In this document: in pieces, positions 39,066 through 49,569 of the stretch
Layout: every line of letters starts with the position of its first letter
How positions within the stretch are numbered: position 1 is the stretch's first letter
Assembly: GCF_006265175.1 (NCBI RefSeq)
Contig: NZ_VDCQ01000060.1
Span: 1-64,000, forward strand
Direction: 5' to 3'
Origin: Paenibacillus hemerocallicola
GTDB lineage: Bacteria; Bacillota; Bacilli; Paenibacillales; NBRC-103111
DNA length: 64,000 nt
Notes under the pieces: generated by a model
The model's input: only the letters and a program-made list of their open reading frames with translations
Databases searched by the model: none
What the model was told of the DNA's origin: nothing
Translations under genes and position numbers: made by a program

Positions 39066-42000
39066 CTACAGTCCTCGCGTCTGCCTGTCGAAGCGGATTT
39101 TTCGTTCGATCTCCCGATAGACGCGATCGACGATTTTCTTAATATCGAATTGGGGCAGCTTCTTAACCATCTCCTGAAGCTCCGCCATATCGACCTGCGG
39201 CGGGACGGGCTCGGCGGCCGGCGCCTGTTCGGGCGGGGCGGCCGGCTTCATTTGCCGTCGATAGTCCAGATCCGCCGGGTCCGATCCGAGCGCGCCCGGA
39301 ACCGCCGCCTTCAGCTTGTGCTCCAGCTGGAACATCGGATCCGTATGCCGGGTATCGCTTTGCCTCATCCTCAAAACGTTCTCCGACGCTGCGGAAATTG
39401 CCGTCTGCTGCTGCGGAATGCCGCGTCGCTCAGACCGGACCGGACTCCTCCCGCCCGATTTATTCATCCGAAGCGTTCCCGCAGCCGCGGCACCCGGGTT
39501 CATTGCGGTACGCACGAGACGGAGCTCCGCCGCCGCAGACGGACGAATGCGATCAGGCGGTCGCTTTTCCGGGCTTTCCATACGCGCGGTGCCCGTTTTG
39601 GCAAAGTAATAGTTGTACCACGCTTGATAGCCGTCGCGTATCGTGCGCACCGCACTATTCGCGGTGCCGCTTATCGGGCCCGGCGCTCGTTGCACGATGG
39701 CAAAGCCTCCGCCGTTCTCGCCCGCCGCCCGGTCAAGCGTATATAAGGATACGATAGGGGCCGCGGAGCGGATTATTCCCGGCGAAGACGTGAATCGATT
39801 CACATTGCGAACGATCGACGTTCGGACATTTGCGTTGGACCCGCTCCATCTTCGCTGAATCCGTTCCATTCCGTCCGCTGCGGCCTCCCTGGAGCGATAG
39901 GGGAAAACAAGCTTCTCCCCGGTCATTCCGACAGAACGGGCCGACGAAACAGGTGCAGCCCTTGCCGTTTCGTTCCGCTTCAACGGCGCCGTTCGCCTGA
40001 TCTCCCCGCTACTCCTTGCTGCCGAAGCGTGCTCCCGGGCAATACCAGATTGGAATGAAACTGCCGTATGTATTCGATCCGTCCGATCGGTAAAATGACT
40101 CCTATAACGTAACAACGTTCGGTCGGAGCCGGGCCGCGTCCACCGCTCCAAGTCTTGCTGCGCTCCTCTTGAAGGACGTCGGTGCGAATCGGCTCCGACG
40201 ACAAATGGAGTCAGCCCGTCTTTTCCCGCCGATAAGTCCGATCCATTGGCTGTCGGCACGTATCTCCGACGGATCGGAATCATCCGTTCGACGGCGTTCC
40301 CGCTGCCGCTATCCCCATACGCCGATAAACGATTGACGAACGCGTCTGGCCCGTCTCGTCTTGACGACGTTTGCTTACGGGAGTGTGATAATATATTGCT
40401 CACATCGCTGCGGCTAATCGCGAATTCCGCATTCGGATCATCCACTGCCGGTATCCATGCCGATGTCGGCATTCGGTTCGTCAGAACGTTTAATTCGCCC
40501 GATTGCCTGCGAATCGTTCCGGTCGACAGCTCCGGCCACGACTCCGATACATCCGTTTCGATTTCCGCATGTCGCTTCAGCAAGAACGATAGGCTTGCTC
40601 GTACCGAGCTCCGGCGCCTATCCGACGCAGAGGAAAATAATGCGGGCCGATGCCGCACCGCTCCGGATTCCGTAGACGGGAATCCATTCCGGCTCCGATC
40701 CGTCGCGCCCGAAATGTCCGCTGCCGCACGAAACATTTTCGCATTTTGCCCGTATGAGGAAGCTGCGCTCGCCCCATATCCGTTACGTCTATGGATGACT
40801 CCGTTCTGACGAACGGATTGCAAACCGCTATAACTTCGCGCACCGTCGGCCACGCCCGATCCGTAAAGGGGGCGCATGCGTACCGTACCGCTTTTGTCGG
40901 ACTGGGCTCCGCGTTCCATACCGAACGGTCCCGCTTCCGGGTCTTGCCGTCCGCGAAGAAGCCGTTTTAGCATAAGGCCAATCGTCGCCGGATAAGAAGG
41001 ACCGGAACCAGTCCGATCGGACGCCTTGTCAGCGCTCGACATCGGCATGAATCGATCCTCGATCGTTCGAATCGTCTGCGGTTTGGCCGGATTCAGTCGA
41101 ACGTTAAGCCTGTCGATGGCTGAGGCGGCGGAAATGCTCCTGCCGACTGCAAGTCGATTAGGCACGGCTTGAGTGAAAGCTCGTGTGGAACCAACCCCGC
41201 TGCCCGCATCTAACGCATACTTCCGTAACGTATTCCGCAAATCCGCCAAACCGTACGTTCCGTCGTAATTGCCGTAGATCAAACGCATGCGATCCGCCTG
41301 CGGCCGGGAAATGCTGCCGACCGGCATTGCGGAAGGAATGATGCCAGACTTCGACGGCATACGAAGCATACGAGCTTGACCTGGTTCCCCTCGGTCACTC
41401 CTTTGCACGAACATCCGAATAACGCTCGTCGGTTCCGGGCTCGATCCGGAACTGTTAACATGACGGGGGCGCGCCGCTTGTATCCGTAACGGAAATCGCC
41501 TACCGAACGATTCCACAGACAGCGGATCGCGAATATGCCCCATCGGTGTCCCCGGAGCAGCCGTCCGCTTCAGCCTAATCGGTCGACGCGCAGAAGGGAA
41601 GTCCTCCGCATTGTCGGCATGATCGGCTGAAATTCCGCCGGAAATGGATGTCATCGCGGGACGAAGCTTGATGCCGAACACGAACGCCTTTTTATCTTCC
41701 TCATACGGACCCGATCGAGGGCCGATGCCGGAATCATGCCCCATACGAGACGTCGCATACTTTTGAAACGTTTCCTCCGTATACGGCTTCCCTCGCACCG
41801 GGGAACGAGGTCCGTAAGAAATCCCTCCATCCGACTCTGCATGGTCGGCAGACGATTGACGGAGTACGAGTCTCGACACTAGCGAAGCCGCAGCGGAGGC
41901 GCGAGGCGAGTAAACTGCATCCTCCGATTGCGTGCCGGCAAGACGGTCAAATCGATGCCGCGGCTCCGGATGCCGCGAAATCCGTTTTATTGTCGGATAT

Positions 42001-45000
42001 GCCGCATTGGAAATCATTCGCCGCAGCTGTCGAGATGTGGGAGGAGCGAATTCCGAAACGCCAGTCCCGTACGGAAATTGTCGGATTGCGGTAGACTGAC
42101 CGAAACTGAAGCCTATTCGCGACGGAGCATCCGACTCCGCATGGTCGGCAGACGACCGACGGAGTACGAGTCTCGACACTAGCGAAGCCGCAGCGGAGGC
42201 GCGAGGCGAGTAAACTGCATCCTCCGATTGCGTGCCGGCAAGACGGTCAAATCGATGCCGCGGCTCCGGATGCCGCGAATTCCGTTTTATTGTCGGGTAT
42301 GCCGCAGCGGACATCATCCGCCGCAACTGTCGGGATGTGGGAGGTGTGAATTCCGAAGCGCCGATCCCGTACGGAAATTGTCGGATTGCGGTATACTGAC
42401 CGGAACTGAAGCCTATTGGCGATTGAGTCGAACTATGTATGGTTGAACGAAACACGGCCGATCGCTTGCCGCGTTCGTTCTGTCGAGGTTGAGAGCGATT
42501 TGCTTGTATAGCTCCATCCTCGACAAAATCGGAAGAAACGTCATCGTTGCGAATATGTCGATTTCGAACCGTCGGCGGCTTATCGCCGATGGAACGGAGA
42601 GAACCGCCCCTCTCGCGATGTATGCGCAAATCCCGGGAGAAAAGGGACATTTGCCATGCATTTTTTTCCGGCATGGCGGTCGGATCAAGCAAATTCCTTC
42701 GTATCCCTACCTCGCGGCGAAGCGCCATACTCGACGGCAAGATCGACGTTTCCCTTTCGTTTGCCGTCACGGCTCTGCGGGCCCGCGCCACAATCGTTTC
42801 CATGGAAGGTGCCCGGATAAAGCCGGCAGTCGATCCCCGACCGATAGCGAACGGACTGGCTGTATTCGCCATTCCGGAATCGTCCGACTCCGCTGACGGT
42901 ATAATCGTTCTGCCGGTCAAACGGCGTCCGGTCGGAACCCTTCCCGGCATCGAAGCAGTGCCCCGTTCCCTCTCGTTTCCGAATCGATGCACGGTTCGGA
43001 AAGGCTTGTCATCTTCCTCCTTTTCAAACCGTTGTTTTCTGCGAATGATCGCGTCAGACGACTGATTGCCACTTTGCCGCGAGAGCGCGTTCGTGTGCCC
43101 GGCGCTCGACAGCATTGCCGCAAAGAGTCGATTGTCCGTCGAAATATCCGTTAACAGGTCGTCAAAAGCTCGCACGGCCGGCGTATCGAGCCGTGAACGG
43201 AGAGTCGACGCCATAGGCCTGAAAGCCGTATCGATACGCATGCTCAGGAAGCGCGGTATACTCGATTGAGTCGAGTTCGATAATACGCCCTTCGAAAATA
43301 CCGGTTGACGCCCGTTAGCGTCGTAAGAAACATGGCTCGGATGCATCGTACGACGATGTACGGTTTCCTTGCCTTTCTTATCATGCCGGTGCATAAGCAA
43401 GGTTAATTGCCCGCCAACCGGTCTGACCCGGCTACCGGCTGATACTCCGTAGAAATGATCAAATGTTTGGACGCCGCGTCTGGCCGGTCCCGCGCCGACT
43501 ACTTGATCGCTTGATCCCGGACGGCCGAACGACCACGCTTGGCTATTCAATCGTTCGGACTTGCGCGCGATAAATGGCCCATGGGTATTCGGCCTCACCG
43601 CTTGATTCCCATGCAGCGGAGAACGACGGAATGCGAACCGGTTAATCATTATGTATGGATCGACCGTCTCCGGCCTCGCAAATACAATGGCATGTCGAAT
43701 CGCCCGTGCTCCGGGAATCGAATGCCCGTTTCCCTGCAAGGGTCGCCGAAATACATGCATGTTCCCAAGCGAAGACGAGAAATCCCGATCGATGGCGGGA
43801 TTTATGGAGCGGCCGCCGATCGGCTTCCTTAAAAGCCGTTGTACGGTATGCCCCGGACTGTGTCCGTCTACTGCCGCGACAGCCGAGTTGTTTCCGGACA
43901 ACGGAAACGGTTTTAGAGACGTATGCTTTCGCTCCACCGGAGCTGCTCCGATTTTCGCTTGTGCCGGGAGCTTATATGGTAGTCGGATCGAATCCGCGGC
44001 CCGGTTGGACGGGAAAAGGCTCTCCACCGCCGGGTGTCCACTGTCTCGGTCCATTGGCCGCACAGTTTCCGCGGAGTATCCTTCGTTATGTTCGCGGTTT
44101 GCTTGCTTCGCTTGCAAGGAATTTCGATCGAGTCGCGGCGTTCCGCGAAGCTGAACCGAATCATTCCGGGTTAATGTGTTGCGGCTGGCAGGATCCGAAG
44201 CTCGCGCATATTTGTCGATTACGGATTCCGCATAAGTATTCGTGCGGGTCGAACGGTATATCGTTTCGAAAGGGTGTAAATATACGCTTTTGGCCCCTAA
44301 ACGGCCAGGCTGCTCATTTCGAGCCCGTCGCGATCCCGGATTGCCGTCGGTTTGGCGGCGACCGGCTAAGTGCACCATGGCCGATTTCACTCCGAGCCCC
44401 GTCCGCATGCCCAGACCGTGCTTCGGACCGGCAGCTTCGAGCTGCGTGAACATCGATCCGTCAGCGAACGGCTTCGCCCGAATGATGACGACTCCCTTGC
44501 CTCCGGGTACCTCCGCCCTGATCGGCGGCGCAATTTCCGTTGCCGGATCGGCGGCTTTCGTATCCTTGTTGACTGCTTCCTGATTCGCTTTACGCTTGCG
44601 TTTCGATTTCCCGTCCGGTGAAGCTGGGGTCGTGCCGTCTGGATCGGACGATTTACGGGAGTTCCGCGTTTTGGTCGTCTTCGCTTGTTTGTCGCGGCTG
44701 CGTTCGGAACGATCCGTTTTCTCGTCTCCCGAACGACCGCTCCGTCCGGTGTTCGGAGCATCCGAGCGTTCTTCGGAAGCATGCCCGGTCGGTTTCGAGT
44801 CGGGAATTAAGGCCGATTTATCGGCCGACTGACCATTACCCGTCTGGGCCGTTTCCTTCTCGACGATGATCCGCTCCACAAGCCGGGTCGTTTCCGAGAC
44901 GACCATGCGCTCTCGCGGCGTCGCCGGCATCGCTTGCTGCAGCTGCTGCAGACGAATCAGCCATTGCGCCGTCATGACGTCCGAGCTCTTCGCGCCGCGC

Positions 45001-45221
45001 ATGATTTGCCGGACCAGCTCGCGCTGCTGCTTGAACACGAGCGACAGGCGGCCCAAATAATTGCCCCGCGTGAACCCGTACTTGCTCATAATTCCGGACG
45101 CAAACCGGTCCGGGTCATTCCCCGCCATGCCTTTGTCCGCGACACGGACATCGGCCTGCACGCCGGCCGTTTTCGAGGGACCGCCGAGGATTCGGGACTT
45201 ATACGGTTTTGGTGGTGCCAT
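39066..45221 (-). CDS. Giant Arg/Ser-rich protein in the tape-measure position (2,051 aa)
   Basis: 2,051 aa from the ATG at 45221, which has GGAGG 8 bases upstream. Only the ends look folded: an N-terminal helical part (about 25-130, RGNYLGRLSLVFKQQRELVR and LIRLQQLQQAMPATPRERMV) and a C-terminal helix (FDIKKIVDRVYREIERKIRF, about 2025-2045). The 1,850 residues between are very rich in Arg, Ser, Pro, Ala and look disordered, not coiled coil. Its place between tube 2 and the LysM gene is where other systems put length-control or adapter genes. A tape-measure role is possible, but the composition is unusual for one; a cargo-holding or DNA/RNA-binding role is also possible. It contains a 100-residue tandem duplication (see repeat). 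Confidence 0.6.
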   Translation of the reverse strand: MAPPKPYKSRILGGPSKTAGVQADVRVADKGMAGNDPDRFASGIMSKYGFTRGNYLGRLSLVFKQQRELVRQIMRGAKSSDVMTAQWLIRLQQLQQAMPATPRERMVVSETTRLVERIIVEKETAQTGNGQSADKSALIPDSKPTGHASEERSDAPNTGRSGRSGDEKTDRSERSRDKQAKTTKTRNSRKSSDPDGTTPASPDGKSKRKRKANQEAVNKDTKAADPATEIAPPIRAEVPGGKGVVIIRAKPFADGSMFTQLEAAGPKHGLGMRTGLGVKSAMVHLAGRRQTDGNPGSRRARNEQPGRLGAKSVYLHPFETIYRSTRTNTYAESVIDKYARASDPASRNTLTRNDSVQLRGTPRLDRNSLQAKQANREHNEGYSAETVRPMDRDSGHPAVESLFPSNRAADSIRLPYKLPAQAKIGAAPVERKHTSLKPFPLSGNNSAVAAVDGHSPGHTVQRLLRKPIGGRSINPAIDRDFSSSLGNMHVFRRPLQGNGHSIPGARAIRHAIVFARPETVDPYIMINRFAFRRSPLHGNQAVRPNTHGPFIARKSERLNSQAWSFGRPGSSDQVVGAGPARRGVQTFDHFYGVSAGSRVRPVGGQLTLLMHRHDKKGKETVHRRTMHPSHVSYDANGRQPVFSKGVLSNSTQSSIPRFLSMRIDTAFRPMASTLRSRLDTPAVRAFDDLLTDISTDNRLFAAMLSSAGHTNALSRQSGNQSSDAIIRRKQRFEKEEDDKPFRTVHRFGNERERGTASMPGRVPTGRRLTGRTIIPSAESDDSGMANTASPFAIGRGSTAGFIRAPSMETIVARARRAVTANERETSILPSSMALRREVGIRRNLLDPTAMPEKNAWQMSLFSRDLRIHRERGGSLRSIGDKPPTVRNRHIRNDDVSSDFVEDGAIQANRSQPRQNERGKRSAVFRSTIHSSTQSPIGFSSGQYTAIRQFPYGIGASEFTPPTSRQLRRMMSAAAYPTIKRNSRHPEPRHRFDRLAGTQSEDAVYSPRASAAASLVSRLVLRRSSADHAESDAPSRIGFSFGQSTAIRQFPYGTGVSEFAPPTSRQLRRMISNAAYPTIKRISRHPEPRHRFDRLAGTQSEDAVYSPRASAAASLVSRLVLRQSSADHAESDGGISYGPRSPVRGKPYTEETFQKYATSRMGHDSGIGPRSGPYEEDKKAFVFGIKLRPAMTSISGGISADHADNAEDFPSARRPIRLKRTAAPGTPMGHIRDPLSVESFGRRFPLRIQAARPRHVNSSGSSPEPTSVIRMFVQRSDRGEPGQARMLRMPSKSGIIPSAMPVGSISRPQADRMRLIYGNYDGTYGLADLRNTLRKYALDAGSGVGSTRAFTQAVPNRLAVGRSISAASAIDRLNVRLNPAKPQTIRTIEDRFMPMSSADKASDRTGSGPSYPATIGLMLKRLLRGRQDPEAGPFGMERGAQSDKSGTVRMRPLYGSGVADGARSYSGLQSVRQNGVIHRRNGYGASAASSYGQNAKMFRAAADISGATDRSRNGFPSTESGAVRHRPALFSSASDRRRSSVRASLSFLLKRHAEIETDVSESWPELSTGTIRRQSGELNVLTNRMPTSAWIPAVDDPNAEFAISRSDVSNILSHSRKQTSSRRDGPDAFVNRLSAYGDSGSGNAVERMIPIRRRYVPTANGSDLSAGKDGLTPFVVGADSHRRPSRGAQQDLERWTRPGSDRTLLRYRSHFTDRTDRIHTAVSFQSGIAREHASAARSSGEIRRTAPLKRNETARAAPVSSARSVGMTGEKLVFPYRSREAAADGMERIQRRWSGSNANVRTSIVRNVNRFTSSPGIIRSAAPIVSLYTLDRAAGENGGGFAIVQRAPGPISGTANSAVRTIRDGYQAWYNYYFAKTGTARMESPEKRPPDRIRPSAAAELRLVRTAMNPGAAAAGTLRMNKSGGRSPVRSERRGIPQQQTAISAASENVLRMRQSDTRHTDPMFQLEHKLKAAVPGALGSDPADLDYRRQMKPAAPPEQAPAAEPVPPQVDMAELQEMVKKLPQFDIKKIVDRVYREIERKIRFDRQTRGL
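41828..42424. repeat. Two tandem 300-bp copies inside the giant gene
   Basis: The stretch 41,881-41,940 recurs without change at 42,181-42,240, and the surrounding copies (about 41,828-42,124 and 42,128-42,424) differ at few positions. The period is exactly 300 bases, so 100 codons are duplicated in frame. Similarity fades at both ends, so this is a local, recent duplication. Confidence 0.95.
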
Positions 45222-45265
45222 ATGGAATCCCTCCCGCATGCGGCTTCAAGAACGATGCGCCGTTC

Positions 45266-45721
45266 TTATGACTTGCTGAAGATGGTCTTTAACCCGTTAT
45301 GGACGATCTCGATCGATTCGACCGCCACATTGCCGCTCGTCGCATTCAGATCCGGACCGTGCCACTTGACGGGATACGCTTCGAAAAAATTCCAGCGGCA
45401 AAGCTCTTTGGCGGCATGATTGTGCAAAATAACGGAACCGCTCTTCCGCTTGATCGTGCCTCCCGCCACGCCGTCATACCAATCCCACAGCTCGCTGGAT
45501 TGGGTAATCCCTCTCTTCAGCACGATGCGGGAGTACTTCGTATGCTTCGGCAATATATGCACATGGGTGTTCAGTCCCCCTTCGGGGTATTCCATCACTT
45601 CGGTCTCTGACTGGATGCCGGTGACCTCGGAAAAACCGCCTACCAGCAATCCGTCGAGCTCCACCTTGAAACGGAAAGCTCCGATCGCATCGTTCGTGCG
45701 CTGCGTAGTCACAGACGTCAT
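45266..45721 (-). CDS. Tail tube protein 2 (gp19/Hcp-like)
   Basis: 151 aa from the ATG at 45721, whose A is shared with the TGA of the DUF6760-like frame (TGATG), indicating re-initiation. The ribosome site AAGAGG lies only 2 bases before it, so a GTG at 45712 (11 bases after the site) is a real alternative. Tube-family features: AFRFKVELDGLLVGGFSEVT, the beta pair VMEYPEGGLNTHVHILPKHTKYSRI, and W-x-W (SSELWDWYDGV). It probably forms the tube end or first rings that dock on the baseplate. Confidence 0.9.
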   Translation of the reverse strand: MTSVTTQRTNDAIGAFRFKVELDGLLVGGFSEVTGIQSETEVMEYPEGGLNTHVHILPKHTKYSRIVLKRGITQSSELWDWYDGVAGGTIKRKSGSVILHNHAAKELCRWNFFEAYPVKWHGPDLNATSGNVAVESIEIVHNGLKTIFSKS

Positions 45722-45948
45722 CACCTCTTGTTAAACACGTCGAACGGATTGGGCGGCTTCTCCTGACCGTCGTCGTTCAAATTTCGGTTGATTTTGGAAA
45801 TTTCCTCGCACCAGCGTCTGCGTTCCCGATGCTCCATCGACATGATCTGCTCGTGCGGCCAGTGAAAATAATAGGCGATAAAGCCGGCCTCCTCGTAAAT
45901 CTTGTCAATGGGGTATCCGGTTATGCCTCCGCCGTCTCGTCCAAAAAA
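45721..45948 (-). CDS. DUF6760-like -1 frame extension of the tail-assembly chaperone
   Basis: This reading frame has no ATG, GTG or TTG before its conserved part. It is entered in the -1 frame from the slip site T TTT TTG (45948-45942) near the end of the chaperone gene. After the slip it reads FFGRDGGGITGYPIDKIYEE, then AGFIAYYFHWPHEQIMSMEH, and ends PFDVFNKR with TGA at 45721-45723, giving about 76 residues. GYPIDKxYEE with a later 'FHWP' and 'EHRERRRWCEE' is the DUF6760 pattern, found between tail-chaperone-like and tube genes in such clusters. Upstream the -1 frame is closed by TGA at about 45,964-45,966. The arrangement parallels phage P2 genes E and E+E'. Confidence 0.8.
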   Translation of the reverse strand, partial: FFGRDGGGITGYPIDKIYEEAGFIAYYFHWPHEQIMSMEHRERRRWCEEISKINRNLNDDGQEKPPNPFDVFNKR

Positions 45949-46298
45949 GACACGTCCACATCGAATTCATGCTCGCATTTCGGGCAAATGCAATGAACCT
46001 TCGGAGCTTCCACCTCATTGATCGTACGATACAGATTTTGCAAGTAAGCGAGATCGGCGGTAAACAGCCCTTCGACCGTGCGGGTGTCGATCGCACGCAG
46101 CTCGCCCAGCTTGATGACGACGCGGGCCAACAATATAATGCTGAGGTAGCCGGGGTTTTGCTGCACCCGTTGGTCGCGCATCGGCAATATTTCGTCCGCA
46201 GCCGTCGCAAGGCGCATGACGCCCCGCTTGTGAAGCGTTCCGCTATCGTCGACATATCCGCGGGGAAGCTCGAATTCGTATTCGGTTTGAAAAGCCAT
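45921..46298 (-). CDS. Tail-assembly chaperone (phage E/gp41-like, TAC family)
   Basis: 125 aa from the ATG at 46298 with AGGAGG 9 bases upstream. It starts AFQTEYEFELPRGYVDDSGT and contains MRLATAADEILPMRDQRVQQ and LLARVVIKLGELRAIDTRTV, the pattern of the E/41/14 family of tail chaperones in contractile systems. The C-terminal end holds a CxxC-type pair (HCICPKCEHEF) that may bind zinc. Tail chaperones coat the tape-measure protein during tube assembly and, in phages, are made in two forms by frameshift. Near its 3' end lies the slip site described separately. Confidence 0.82.
   Translation of the reverse strand: MAFQTEYEFELPRGYVDDSGTLHKRGVMRLATAADEILPMRDQRVQQNPGYLSIILLARVVIKLGELRAIDTRTVEGLFTADLAYLQNLYRTINEVEAPKVHCICPKCEHEFDVDVSFLDETAEA
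45942..45948 (-). promoter_or_regulatory. Candidate -1 ribosomal frameshift heptamer T TTT TTG
   Basis: On the coding strand the codons GTG TCT TTT TTG GAC contain the heptamer T TTT TTG in the exact 0-frame register (X XXY YYZ) needed for tandem slippage. The 0 frame stops at TAA (45921-45923) seven codons later; the -1 frame continues for about 75 codons as the DUF6760-like protein. A downstream GGCGGAGG (about 45,927-45,934) could act as a stimulating element. Confidence 0.75.
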
Positions 46299-46419: not shown

Positions 46420-46854
46420 TTACTTCGTGCGTGTCATTCCTTCGTGAGCCAGCTCCAGGTTTTCGATCGCCACTTCGTTGCCCGAGCCGTTGAAGCCGGG
46501 CGCCGAATATTTGGAAGGCCATGCCTCGATAACTTGCCAGGTGGCTACGTCCGCGCCTTCTTCATTGATGGCGATAATCGTAACCGTTTTGCGCGTAATT
46601 TTGCCTTGAATCGATTCGGCCATCCAGTTGTACATATCCAACGAATCCGTAACGCCCCATTTGAGCGTGATATTGCCGTATTTGGCCAACCCGGGCAGCT
46701 TGCGGGGAGTGATAACCTGATTGCCCTCCCGGTATTCGATTACGGATAAACTGGCGTCGAAACCGGACACTTCGCTGAACCCGGCCTGCTGAATACCGGC
46801 CACTTCGACGCGGAATCTAAAATTGCGGTATGGATCTTTGCGTTCGCCTGCCAT
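46420..46854 (-). CDS. Tail tube protein 1 (gp19/Hcp-like)
   Basis: 144 aa. Tube-family features: PYRNFRFRVEVAGIQQAGFS, then the beta hairpin VIEYREGNQVITPRKLPGLA and KYGNITLKWGVTDSLDMYNW. Length and order (directly after the sheath gene) fit the major inner tube protein. AAAGGGG lies 6 bases before the ATG. Homologous to tube 2, but the two are clearly diverged; this one, next to the sheath, is likely the main tube subunit. Confidence 0.92.
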   Translation of the reverse strand: MAGERKDPYRNFRFRVEVAGIQQAGFSEVSGFDASLSVIEYREGNQVITPRKLPGLAKYGNITLKWGVTDSLDMYNWMAESIQGKITRKTVTIIAINEEGADVATWQVIEAWPSKYSAPGFNGSGNEVAIENLELAHEGMTRTK

Positions 46855-46897: not shown

Positions 46898-48646
46898 TTA
46901 TTCTTCTCTCGTTTTTTGCGTAATCCGGAAGATGACGAACTCGGCGGGCTTCACCGGAGCTACGCCGATTACGCAAATGAGGCGGCCGTTATCGATATCG
47001 TCCTGCGTCATCGTGCTCCGTCCGATATTGATATAGAACGCTTCGCCCGGACTGCTGCCCGTGAGGGCTCCGTCTCTCCATACGCGTGTCAGGAAAGCAT
47101 CGATCGTCCGCTGTACGCGGGCCCACAGCTGCTCGTCGTTCGGCTCGAAGACGACCCAGTTCGTGCCGTTGCGGATCGATTCTTCGAGGAATATGAACAG
47201 TCTTCTTACGTTGATGTACTTCCACAGCCCGTTGGAGGAGCAAGTGCGGGCGCCCCAGACGCGGATGCCTTGCCCGGCGAATTGGCGGATCAGGTTGACC
47301 CCTTGAGGATTCAGGATGTCCTGCTCGCCCTTGTTGTACTGGCAATCGAGACCTACCACGCCTCGCACGACTTCGTTCGCCGGAGCTTTATGTACGCCGC
47401 GCGTATTGTCGGAACGGGCGTAGATACCGACCATCGAGCCCGATGGCGGGATATAGATGTTGCGTTTGTCGAGCGGGTCGAATACTTGCAGCCACGGATT
47501 GTACATCGCCGCGTATTGGCTGTCGAAAATGTTGCGGTGCGTCATGACGTCCGTTACCTTCGTTTTGTCGCGCGGAATGTCAAGCACCGCGAAACGGCTG
47601 CCCAAGTTTTCGCAATGCGCTACGAGAGCCAACTGTACGTTGGGATCGGTAACGCCGGGCACGGCCATAATGCTGACGAAGTCGTTGTCGATAAACGCCT
47701 GGATGCCGGTCCGTTTACCCGGTCCCCGATCCTGGCCCATGAAATCGGATGCGGACAAGTTGGCCACGGAGCCGTCGCTGCCGCCGGAAAGTGCGATTTG
47801 GTATTTGCCTGCCGTCTCTTCCTGTCCGGAAATGACTTCGAACGGAGCTACCGCGCCGCTGCCGCCGCCGGATATGTCCTGCACCTTGACGATATTGGAG
47901 CGGGCCATCACTTTCTCGATATGGTTGGCGGCCGATACGTTCAGGGACATTCTTTCGAACGTTTCCGCCTCGTCGCCGTAGAACACGTGCATCGTAAACT
48001 CGCTGGTCGTCAACACCTTCGCAGGCAGCAGGTTTTGATCGATAACCGCTTCTCCGCCTTCGAGCGGCGTTTCCAGCTCGATAATGTTGTCCTGCGAGGA
48101 TACGATTTTATTGTACTGCTTCTCGCCGTTCGCTTCGAAAGCGACTACATCGCCAACGTTGAAACCTGCATTGTTTTTCACGCGGTATTGCTTGGATTGC
48201 TCGGCATCGCCCAATATTTCGTAAATTTGGGTTTTGGCTTTGCTCGATGGAACGACCGCGATGCGAACTTGATTTCCCCATGCTCCCGGATTTTTGGATT
48301 GAATGTTCAGGATGGAGGATTCCTTATTCGACGCGGACTGGTTGTTGGCCAGCTTGGCGTCGGATGGCGCTACGCGCATAACGAATGCACGCGCTCCGCC
48401 GTTCAGGAAGAAATGCTCGACGGCGTAGGACAAGAAACGATAGTCGCCGAAGGCGTTCTCGGACAAATAGCTGCCGAAGATGCGATGGAAATCGGCTACG
48501 CTCGTTACGAGTTGAGGAAGTCCTTCAATTTCCCCCCGTTGCGCCAAGCCGATGAATCCGGCCGTGCTTGTGCTTGCCCCTTCCAACGGAGCCGCGCCAC
48601 TGTCAAACTCTTCCACATACACGCCTGGCGATAAATATTCTGCCAT
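46898..48646 (-). CDS. Contractile tail sheath protein
   Basis: 582 aa from the ATG at 48646. The start AEYLSPGVYVEEFDSGAAPL is the classical sheath N-terminus. The C-terminal part contains KYINVRRLFIFLEESIRNGT and WVVFEPNDEQLWARVQRTID, the conserved sheath end domain. The frame is open further upstream but has no start codon in good context. Only one sheath gene is visible, whereas Afp-type systems have three. It forms the contractile outer layer around the tube. Confidence 0.95.
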   Translation of the reverse strand: MAEYLSPGVYVEEFDSGAAPLEGASTSTAGFIGLAQRGEIEGLPQLVTSVADFHRIFGSYLSENAFGDYRFLSYAVEHFFLNGGARAFVMRVAPSDAKLANNQSASNKESSILNIQSKNPGAWGNQVRIAVVPSSKAKTQIYEILGDAEQSKQYRVKNNAGFNVGDVVAFEANGEKQYNKIVSSQDNIIELETPLEGGEAVIDQNLLPAKVLTTSEFTMHVFYGDEAETFERMSLNVSAANHIEKVMARSNIVKVQDISGGGSGAVAPFEVISGQEETAGKYQIALSGGSDGSVANLSASDFMGQDRGPGKRTGIQAFIDNDFVSIMAVPGVTDPNVQLALVAHCENLGSRFAVLDIPRDKTKVTDVMTHRNIFDSQYAAMYNPWLQVFDPLDKRNIYIPPSGSMVGIYARSDNTRGVHKAPANEVVRGVVGLDCQYNKGEQDILNPQGVNLIRQFAGQGIRVWGARTCSSNGLWKYINVRRLFIFLEESIRNGTNWVVFEPNDEQLWARVQRTIDAFLTRVWRDGALTGSSPGEAFYINIGRSTMTQDDIDNGRLICVIGVAPVKPAEFVIFRITQKTREE

Positions 48647-48768
48647 TGTTTCCCGGTCATATTCGACGGCATGGGACGATTTGCATTGTCCGCCATGCCG
48701 TAAACTCGGACCAGTTCTCTCCTTTCGGCTTCGGTTTTTAGTATTCAAAATGGAAATGAGCCCGGATG

Positions 48769-49569
48769 CTAGACGGTCCATGTTCCAAGATTGACGGTTT
48801 GGCCTTCTGCTACGGTAATTTCTTGGGCCGCGATCGTTACGCCCGGCTCGCGCTCGATGCGGAGCTCGGCCTTGAACGAATTCGACTTCCCCCCCGGAAA
48901 GGCGACTGCCAGCTCGCCCCGTTCGGTCGTCTTCGTCGCGTATATGGGATACAGCAGCGATCCCCGCGAATACGAGGAAGTGAGGACGCTTTCCAGCCGA
49001 AACCGTTTCTGATGCTCGAGCACTTCGCGAATGCATACGATTTCGCGGCCTTCCTTGGAGCCTCGCCCGACCAGCAAGAAACGGTCGCCGATCTCGATTT
49101 TCCCGGTAAGGGACGCGACCGTAATCTCGTCGCTTCCTTTCACCGTTTTGTCCTCGGATATGCGCCCTTTGACGCAGTCGTCGGATAACAGGGTAGCCGT
49201 CACGCCCGCATGCCGCAAAGGGGCGCCGGAAGCTTCCGCCACGATCGCCCGCACGAGCGTATCGTTCGGCTTATACGGATAAGATGGAATCGGGATTAGA
49301 GGAATATGAATGACGCGATTGGAGGAACCGACCGAAATGTCCCTGGTCTCGCGAAAGTAATAAGTAGAGCTAATGTCCAAACGATATGTACCCGGATCCA
49401 AGTCAACGAATATGTAAGTGCCGTCCGGCTTGCCGATCGGCTTTCTCGGATATTGAACCAGTCGCACCTCCATATTGCGGTCGGAGGGCGGTCCGGAAAC
49501 GTAGCCGTCGCGCAGCGCGATTACGAGCGAAACCCGCGATTTCATGCGGACGACACGCAGTTGTTCCAT
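48769..49569 (-). CDS. eCIS-associated Ig/carboxypeptidase-regulatory-like protein (unknown role)
   Basis: 266 aa; GGGGGGAG lies just before the ATG. The N-terminal part (PIGKPDGTYIFVDLDPGTYR, then LDISSTYYF) resembles a carboxypeptidase-regulatory/Ig-like beta domain; two more beta-rich parts follow (about 95-180 and 215-266). No signal peptide or catalytic motif. Genes of this kind occur between the DUF4255 and sheath genes in eCIS loci. It may decorate the particle or cap region, which is inference from position. Confidence 0.65.
   Translation of the reverse strand: MEQLRVVRMKSRVSLVIALRDGYVSGPPSDRNMEVRLVQYPRKPIGKPDGTYIFVDLDPGTYRLDISSTYYFRETRDISVGSSNRVIHIPLIPIPSYPYKPNDTLVRAIVAEASGAPLRHAGVTATLLSDDCVKGRISEDKTVKGSDEITVASLTGKIEIGDRFLLVGRGSKEGREIVCIREVLEHQKRFRLESVLTSSYSRGSLLYPIYATKTTERGELAVAFPGGKSNSFKAELRIEREPGVTIAAQEITVAEGQTVNLGTWTV

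Follow-up and report, generated by a model that had tools for sequence, protein, structure and literature searches.

The 64,000-nucleotide stretch of Paenibacillus hemerocallicola DNA analysed here (the window; its genome comprises 9.65 Mb in 167 contigs) carries a cluster for an extracellular contractile injection system (eCIS), an injection machine derived from phage tails that, unlike phage P2, has no capsid. Within this cluster, a gene for a tail assembly chaperone is followed, in the -1 frame, by a reading frame for the domain DUF6760 that lacks a start codon of its own. Comparison with related loci makes it highly probable (about 0.9) that the chaperone gene makes two proteins, with DUF6760 being added to the second by a -1 ribosomal frameshift. 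The parts concerned are as follows.

46298..45921, minus strand: 0-frame tail assembly chaperone gene, 125 amino acids, with a C-terminal CPKC motif and TAA at 45923-45921
45949..45966, minus strand: segment of the open -1 frame immediately 5' of the slip site; duplex energies indicate a weak Shine-Dalgarno (SD)-like match
45942..45948, minus strand: slippery heptamer T TTT TTG in exact 0-frame register
45724..45942, minus strand: -1 frame extension with DUF6760 (PF20546), 73 codons from the slip site; the core GYPIDK begins at 45918
45721..45723, minus strand: TGA stop of the -1 frame, the last base of which is the first base of the ATG in the second tube gene

These coordinates agree with the initial annotation, which had placed T TTT TTG in register at 45948-45942, seven codons before the TAA, and had described a start-less -1 frame ending one base into the next ATG; reading of the letters bore out both. 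The TTG of the heptamer is the seventh codon before the chaperone TAA. The -1 frame opens right after a TGA at 45969-45967 and closes at the TGA at 45723-45721, and no ATG, GTG or TTG occurs in it ahead of GYPIDKIYEE. Among near-cognate codons it has an ATT 5' of the slip site and an ATA that shares bases with the chaperone TAA. The predicted chaperone-DUF6760 fusion is 192 amino acids long.

Phage P2 makes E and E+E', and lambda makes G and GT, by a -1 frameshift, and these are tail chaperones encoded near the tape-measure gene. Many copies of the chaperone reportedly bind the tape measure in these phages, a few fusions are said to recruit tube subunits, and both are said to leave. In the eCIS, most ribosomes would read to the TAA and yield the 125-residue chaperone, while a fraction would slip back by one base on U UUU UUG, bypass the stop and add the helical DUF6760, giving the 192-residue fusion. 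At sites of the form X_XXY_YYZ both tRNAs are expected to slip, as is known from work on the HIV site; the junction would then be mainly Ser-Phe-Leu-Gly, with Ser-Phe-Phe-Gly as a lesser form. By analogy with lambda and P2, the chaperone part would coat an internal ruler or lumen protein, the DUF6760 part would bind tube subunits and begin tube polymerisation, and both products would leave before the particle is complete. We infer that slippage occurs here, as well as its rate and the binding partners of each product.

To place the window among its relatives, loci were collected through PF20546. This model had matches in 56 of 104 family genomes, 22 of 398 class genomes and 13 of 398 phylum genomes, the window's own genome being counted in each figure, whereas the 14 control genomes gave none. 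The scan of named genomes gave 80 loci kept out of 113 relatives; a plasmid collection held 34 records with DUF6760, from which 13, and later 4, were taken for locus reading, and the remaining plasmid records and 26 rows of the family scan lie outside the locus set. The first 157 loci (individual loci bear an L number) were reduced to 129 distinct ones by merging those identical over ±150 nt, and to 44 diverse ones below 80% identity. The distinct loci come mostly from Bacillota, with some from cyanobacteria, actinobacteria, proteobacteria and archaea, and the nearest named relatives by DUF6760 locus are Paenibacillus species (96% identity in the DUF6760 peptide). Most loci are related and the Fisher values given below ignore kinship, so the diverse subset provides the safer figure. 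By script, the frame of DUF6760 relative to the chaperone is -1 at 154 of the 157 loci; by eye it is also -1 in L135, L144 and L157. In L144 (a Kovacikia plasmid) the chaperone frame, upstream of 1501, seems broken ahead of the CPxC stretch, through either a broken gene or a sequencing error, and in L146 (genome G839) the DUF6760 match is listed with one internal TAG.

The initial annotation had proposed that related eCIS loci be examined for a slip site in register and for the absence of a start codon. An in-register slip site, each within an open -1 frame, is present at 128 of the 129 distinct loci. The sites fall into three classes: T TTT TT[AG] at 80 loci (T TTT TTG 58, T TTT TTA 22), T TTT followed by another codon at 26 (TCA 8, ATC 7, CAG 3, CTT 3, CCG 2, and ATA, ACC and CCC 1 each; the T TTT CAG sites include L062 and L063), and a G run at 22 (G GGG GAA 15, G GGG GAG 5, G GGG GGA 2). 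Six further loci, L168-L173, stand outside the 129 and all carry G GGG GA[AG] in register. Two of them (L168 and L169, alike in the stretch compared and not identical over their whole length) were obtained from 89 stretches of IMG/VR and have G GGG GAG without a start; the other four have G GGG GAA, with GTG between slip site and core in L170 and L173 and CTG in L171 and L172. A phage collection gave no tblastn match to DUF6760. Between slip site and core, 111 of the 129 loci are devoid of a canonical start, and one is found at 17 of the 128 slip loci and in Haloferax. The lack of a start in most loci might also be taken for chance or decay, the -1 frame then being a degenerate or mis-sequenced gene devoid of function. 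We give this next to no credence, for eight DUF6760 columns are invariant among 61 sequences (plasmid rows left out) and the same start-less state recurs at those 111 loci.

Selection at the codon level was evident when the ends of the chaperone genes were resampled synonymously. TTTTTT[AG], GGGGGA[AG] or GGGGGGA occurs in register within the last 12 codons of 100 of 127 genes, against 9.3 expected (L144 and L157 were left out, their genes being too short), and among 43 diverse genes 38 have one where 4.8 were expected. Other 12-codon windows of the same genes contain such heptamers in 7 of 1147 cases, and in 0 of 388 cases in the diverse set. The Phe codon at the slip site is TTT in 107 of 108 genes, compared with 319 TTT to 249 TTC elsewhere in the genes (Fisher 5.5e-23; 26 of 27 in the diverse subset, p 0.003), and the codon that precedes it ends in T in 107 of 108, compared with 31.5% elsewhere. 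The sole exception to the T|TTT codons is L111, which has G GGG GAA in their place. RNA polymerase might also slip on such runs of T or G, so that part of the mRNA would carry the shift, and transcriptional slippage is known in the control of type III secretion length (PMC5009743; here and below, PubMed Central (PMC) papers are cited for the available part of their text). This explanation is very improbable: the runs are short (T4-T6, G5-G6; only T4 or T5 at 26 of 128 loci), and slippage by the polymerase requires neither the codon register nor the upstream SD-like match, both of which are conserved.

Conservation of the two frames was compared at 64 loci of the T class. Upstream of the slip site, the 0 frame is better conserved in 13 of 15 codons; of the seven codons that follow it, three favour the -1 frame and one favours neither, with a strong -1 lead at two codons (R, 0.62 vs 0.29; G, 0.87 vs 0.40). 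Since the 64 loci were picked by having the heptamer at -30, the slip codons themselves are biased in this set, and the Phe/T codon test is the unbiased one. The shift in conservation at the slip site fits -1 reading from the slip onwards, not reading that begins only at the stop codon. Of the marks of a programmed -1 frameshift, a slip site in register, a conserved -1 frame without a start, selection on synonymous sites and constraint on the -1 frame were found.

The other explanation that bears on these codons is that DUF6760 is a separate protein, made by translation-coupled termination-reinitiation at a non-standard start, such as an AUA lying over the chaperone stop (AUAA/AUAG). An ATA is present between slip site and core at 59 of the 128 slip loci, including the window, and another near-cognate codon at 15; in some lineages the stop overlap holds an ATG or a GTG (ATGA in Brevibacillus, GTGA in Streptomyces), and two annotated plasmid records (L134 and L140) begin DUF6760 at ATA or ATT. 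However, a 0-frame TAR or TGA reads as xTA or xTG in the -1 frame, hence ATA and GTG at the overlap arise by arithmetic, and in 37 of the 128 loci all seven table-11 starts are missing from the stretch that separates slip site and core. Reinitiation also leaves unexplained the fixed T|TTT codons, the -1 frame residues conserved between slip and stop, and an SD-like match whose position follows that of the slip site at each of two stop distances. We therefore consider reinitiation improbable. The canonical starts (ATG, GTG or TTG) at the 17 slip loci are distributed as 12 of the 26 loci with T TTT plus another codon, 4 of the 22 G loci and 1 of the 80 T TTT TTR loci; in L070, L082, L085 and L090, all T TTT TTR, a TTG or GTG forms the first core codon and was not counted.

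Both parts of the predicted fusion resemble phage tail chaperone components. The window DUF6760 scores 64.8 bits against PF20546, above the cut-off of 27 (E 7.5e-18; E 2.1e-16 in the whole-genome search). Compared by hhalign with the E' frame of P2-like phages, DUF6760 gave a probability of 78 and a score of 34.0, the maximum of 200 shuffled controls being 17.2; a second run gave a probability of 89 and a score of 33.0, with a maximum of 19.2 among 100 column-shuffled controls. PF06528 (Phage_P2_GpE) was the second commonest Pfam match, touching 37 of 61 DUF6760 members weakly (best E 0.0047), and the window DUF6760 lies below its curated cut-off (12.6 bits vs 23). The single P2 E' sequence reached only 9.3 bits against the DUF6760 profile, yet this was above all 2000 shuffles; the -1 frame residues are FHWPPSELYPMSLTELITW in P2 and FHWPHEQIMSMEHRERRRW in the window. 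As judged from these profiles, DUF6760 is a remote relative of Phage_P2_GpE, predicted to work like it, and is not a member by the Pfam cut-off. For the chaperone, all 49 members matched phrog_508 ('tail assembly chaperone'; best E 5.8e-10; window E 9.4e-5), the next PHROG being phrog_150 ('baseplate hub') with 18 of 49. Among Pfam models, PF23746 Gp41_Mu touched 32 of 49 (best 5.5e-4), PF12322 T4_baseplate 17 of 49 (best 6e-4) and Phage_TAC_7 2 of 49. AlphaFold2 predicted a beta hairpin with helices for the chaperone (mean pLDDT, the predicted local distance difference test, 80.9) and three helices for DUF6760 (mean pLDDT 73.9). The C-terminus of the chaperone, CICPKCEHEF (about 45990-45960), has in most relatives a single CPxC pair, half of a usual zinc ribbon; zinc-ribbon and HypA models match the protein weakly.

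Among the closest known counterparts is P2 itself, which has the same T TTT TTG site, with the letters GGT TTT TTG TCG at the same place. Its E' is, like DUF6760, a short -1 frame domain (A-x-x-FHWxxxE...M...E...W) behind a tube gene, and record AF063097 annotates the -1 frameshift. In ten P2-like phages (P2 and nine of 253 matching records), T TTT TT[GTC] was found in nine and T TTT ATG in one. E' is annotated as a separate gene in L163, L164 and L166, and likewise in L159 beside a joined coding sequence, and it is unannotated in L162 and L165; the in-register T TTT site is present in L159 and L162-L166. Unlike P2 E, the eCIS chaperone has the CPxC stretch and no profile match to E, and in the window it is the second tube gene, rather than the tape measure, that comes next. 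Chaperones of the lambda and mycobacteriophage type share with the eCIS a product of two lengths made by -1 frameshifting, which for the eCIS is predicted from sequence. T4-like phages, whose T4_baseplate model touches the eCIS chaperones as that of Mu gp41 does, differ in that their tail chaperones are said to be made without frameshifting. In lambda, the two-length G/GT chaperone arises from a low-level -1 frameshift (PMC5009743). The eCIS G class shares GGGGGAA, the 'fivetwo' motif, with about a thousand SEA-PHAGES sites, where nearly all of the frameshifted genes are tail assembly chaperones (PMC10274946). T TTT alone, as in some eCIS loci, corresponds to the tetramer U_UU.U, which ranked third among weakly shift-prone tetramers in E. 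coli given a strong stimulator (PMC4066793).

Stimulators were sought on both sides of the slip site. For -1 shifts, a spacing of 9-14 nt is reported for an internal SD-like stimulator upstream (PMC5009743); the eCIS genes resemble E. coli dnaX in having such a sequence upstream, whereas dnaX is a cellular polymerase gene in which the shift yields a shorter, not a longer, product. At T TTT TTR and G loci, complementarity to the anti-Shine-Dalgarno sequence, taken over 9 nt at a time, is greatest where that segment ends about 5-9 nt 5' of the slip. Located 4-9 nt before the slip, the match is stronger than synonymous resampling predicts, both in the T TTT TTR class (z -11.5, n=80; z -4.4, n=21 diverse) and in the G class (z -3.7, n=22; z -3.4, n=18 diverse), and in the relatives it is of the GAGGTG type and on average stronger than in the window. 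The distance from the end of the best 6-mer to the slip is 8 nt at 46 of the 80 T TTT TTR loci, 22 nt at 20 and 3 nt at 8; at G loci it is 9 nt in 8 of 22, 11 nt in 3 and 6 nt in 3. The slip-to-stop distance is 25-28 nt in 63 of 80 T TTT TTR loci and 7-10 nt in 19 of 22 G loci. Six codons upstream, SD-like matches in the T TTT TTR class are scarcer than the null predicts (z +34.6, the spread being very small), which may reflect avoidance of a competing SD-like sequence. In the G class alone, a strong stem-loop follows the slip (minimum free energy -16.5 vs -8.4 for the synonymous null; z below -1 in 20 of 22); it begins at the core, and its distance from the heptamer is 5 nt in 15 of 22 loci and 8 nt in 6. 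Of 27 loci, 17 have a fixed 7-bp stem in full, with GTACGC...GCGTAC in its place in L143, L145 and L170; RNAalifold consensus folding of the G class gave almost nothing. RNA structure as a general downstream stimulator was ruled out for the two T classes, with mean z of -0.5 (n=21) and -0.05 (n=26). A better heptamer without structure, set against a poorer heptamer with structure, is what a tuned frameshift signal would resemble.

Several observations weigh against frameshifting, or against its holding at every locus. The case for the fusion is built on comparison. In the window the SD-like match is weak (duplex energies of -4.3 kcal/mol at 6 nt and -6.6 at 0-1 nt) and downstream structure does not exceed the synonymous null (z +0.9), so that the efficiency of frameshifting could be low. 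At the 64 conservation loci the 0 frame is ahead in three of the seven codons behind the slip, and neither frame leads overall. Only T TTT, not the full heptamer, is kept at 26 of the 128 slip loci, a class in which the SD signal is modest (z -2.6, n=26) and absent from the four diverse loci (z -0.3). A comparison of the eCIS chaperone with the P2 E profile scored 9.6, below the maximum of 20.7 among 100 shuffled controls, so that the link from chaperone to phage is carried by the PHROG and Pfam models. Initiation at AUA is possible for the loci with ATA, the window among them. At 19 of 128 loci, mostly GC-rich and not including the window, a canonical start lies 5' of the slip in the still-open -1 frame; in these, in the 17 with a start behind the slip and in Haloferax, DUF6760 could be synthesised separately. 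DUF6760 has its own start in Brevibacillus, L129-L131, L076, L135, some Streptomyces and Haloferax (L138), the last of which has no slip site and places DUF6760 under its own ATG. What the comparison does show is the slip site and its register, the start-less frame, the codon selection, the -1 constraint behind the slip, and the homologies of DUF6760 with P2 E' and of the chaperone with phage chaperone models.

On this evidence, the proposal that the eCIS uses a frameshift of the P2/lambda kind was supported by the slip sites, the start-less frames, the homology to P2 E' and the chaperone models. The wider suggestion of the initial annotation, that DUF6760 is generally the E' equivalent, held across loci and failed as a universal rule; the contrary case that it had named, a DUF6760 with its own start and no slip site, was found in Haloferax only, the other lineages with own starts retaining a slip site. 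Expression of DUF6760 by a -1 frameshift thus appears from the sequences to be general and not universal. Start codons accompany decayed heptamers in a few lineages (Brevibacillus, L129-L131, L076). An ATG at the stop overlap was seen in L079, L081, L117, L119-L125, L129-L131, L076, L135 and L138, where the heptamer is mostly decayed (T TTT TCA, CCG, CAG, ATA); L135 has its own ATG and yet keeps G GGG GAA. These loci apparently represent a change from frameshifting to coupled initiation. With moderate confidence, we propose that recoding is the ancestral and general route of DUF6760 expression in bacterial and archaeal eCIS, the signal having been rebuilt at least once with the -1 register kept. 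In most Bacilli it would consist of a U-run heptamer and an SD-like stimulator; cyanobacteria, actinobacteria, clostridia, proteobacteria and methane-oxidising archaea would combine a G-run heptamer, an SD-like stimulator and, 5-8 nt downstream, a stem-loop. A few lineages would have gained their own start as the heptamer decayed. If so, the chaperone:fusion ratio would set tube initiation in a cellular nanomachine.

A start-less frame misleads gene callers, and it accounts for the odd annotation of DUF6760. Among 10 plasmid records with gene tables, DUF6760 is unannotated in L133, begun inside the core at a TTG in L136, and annotated from ATA, ATT or CTG in L134, L140 and L172. L133 is a Brasilonema plasmid on which the chaperone is annotated and DUF6760 is missing at 1501-1650; in L136, a Rhodococcus plasmid, DUF6760 is begun at 1528. 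Searches of the open-licence PMC literature, a body that excludes subscription papers and preprints, found no mention of DUF6760, no slippery-site frameshift in an eCIS and no frameshift in a tailocin tail assembly chaperone; the available portions of PMC13222765, PMC10020575, PMC8718954 and PMC8528098 describe no eCIS frameshift. With the present findings, DUF6760 gains a likely function as the E'/T-type arm of a tail chaperone, and the adjoining chaperone gene likewise receives one. The role proposed for this pair differs from that of Cis6/Pvc6, a spike plug resolved in particles (PMC8894136, PMC12210884). Assembly of the eCIS would come under the rule, known from phages, that the chaperone:fusion ratio is fixed, and eCIS expression designed from annotated open reading frames alone could lose a needed fusion.

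Tube genes flank the chaperone/DUF6760 pair on both sides in the window, and the neighbouring genes are as follows.

46898..49036, minus strand: tail sheath gene of the same cluster (PF04984/PF17482)
46420..46854, minus strand: gene for the first tube protein, 5' of the chaperone gene (PF06841, E 7.1e-47)
45266..45724, minus strand: second tube protein gene, T4 gp19-like (PF06841, E 2.4e-45)
39066-45239, minus strand: gene for a 2057-residue protein, flanked by the second tube gene and the CIS_tube gene

The longest open reading frame of the second tube gene starts from a GTG at 45724, followed by the ATG at 45721. The 2057-residue protein sits at the place of a tape measure, is rich in R, S, A and P, and had no match among Pfam, NCBIfam or PHROG models. 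Proteins of other lengths stand behind the second tube gene in L108 (576 residues) and L111 (423 residues), with C-termini similar to that of the 2057-residue protein: ..ERRVRIERERRGL and ..EKRIAIQKDRRGLL, respectively, compared with ..ERKIRFDRQTRGL in the window. From its variable length and its conserved end, this protein may be a lumen ruler or a plug-linked cargo.
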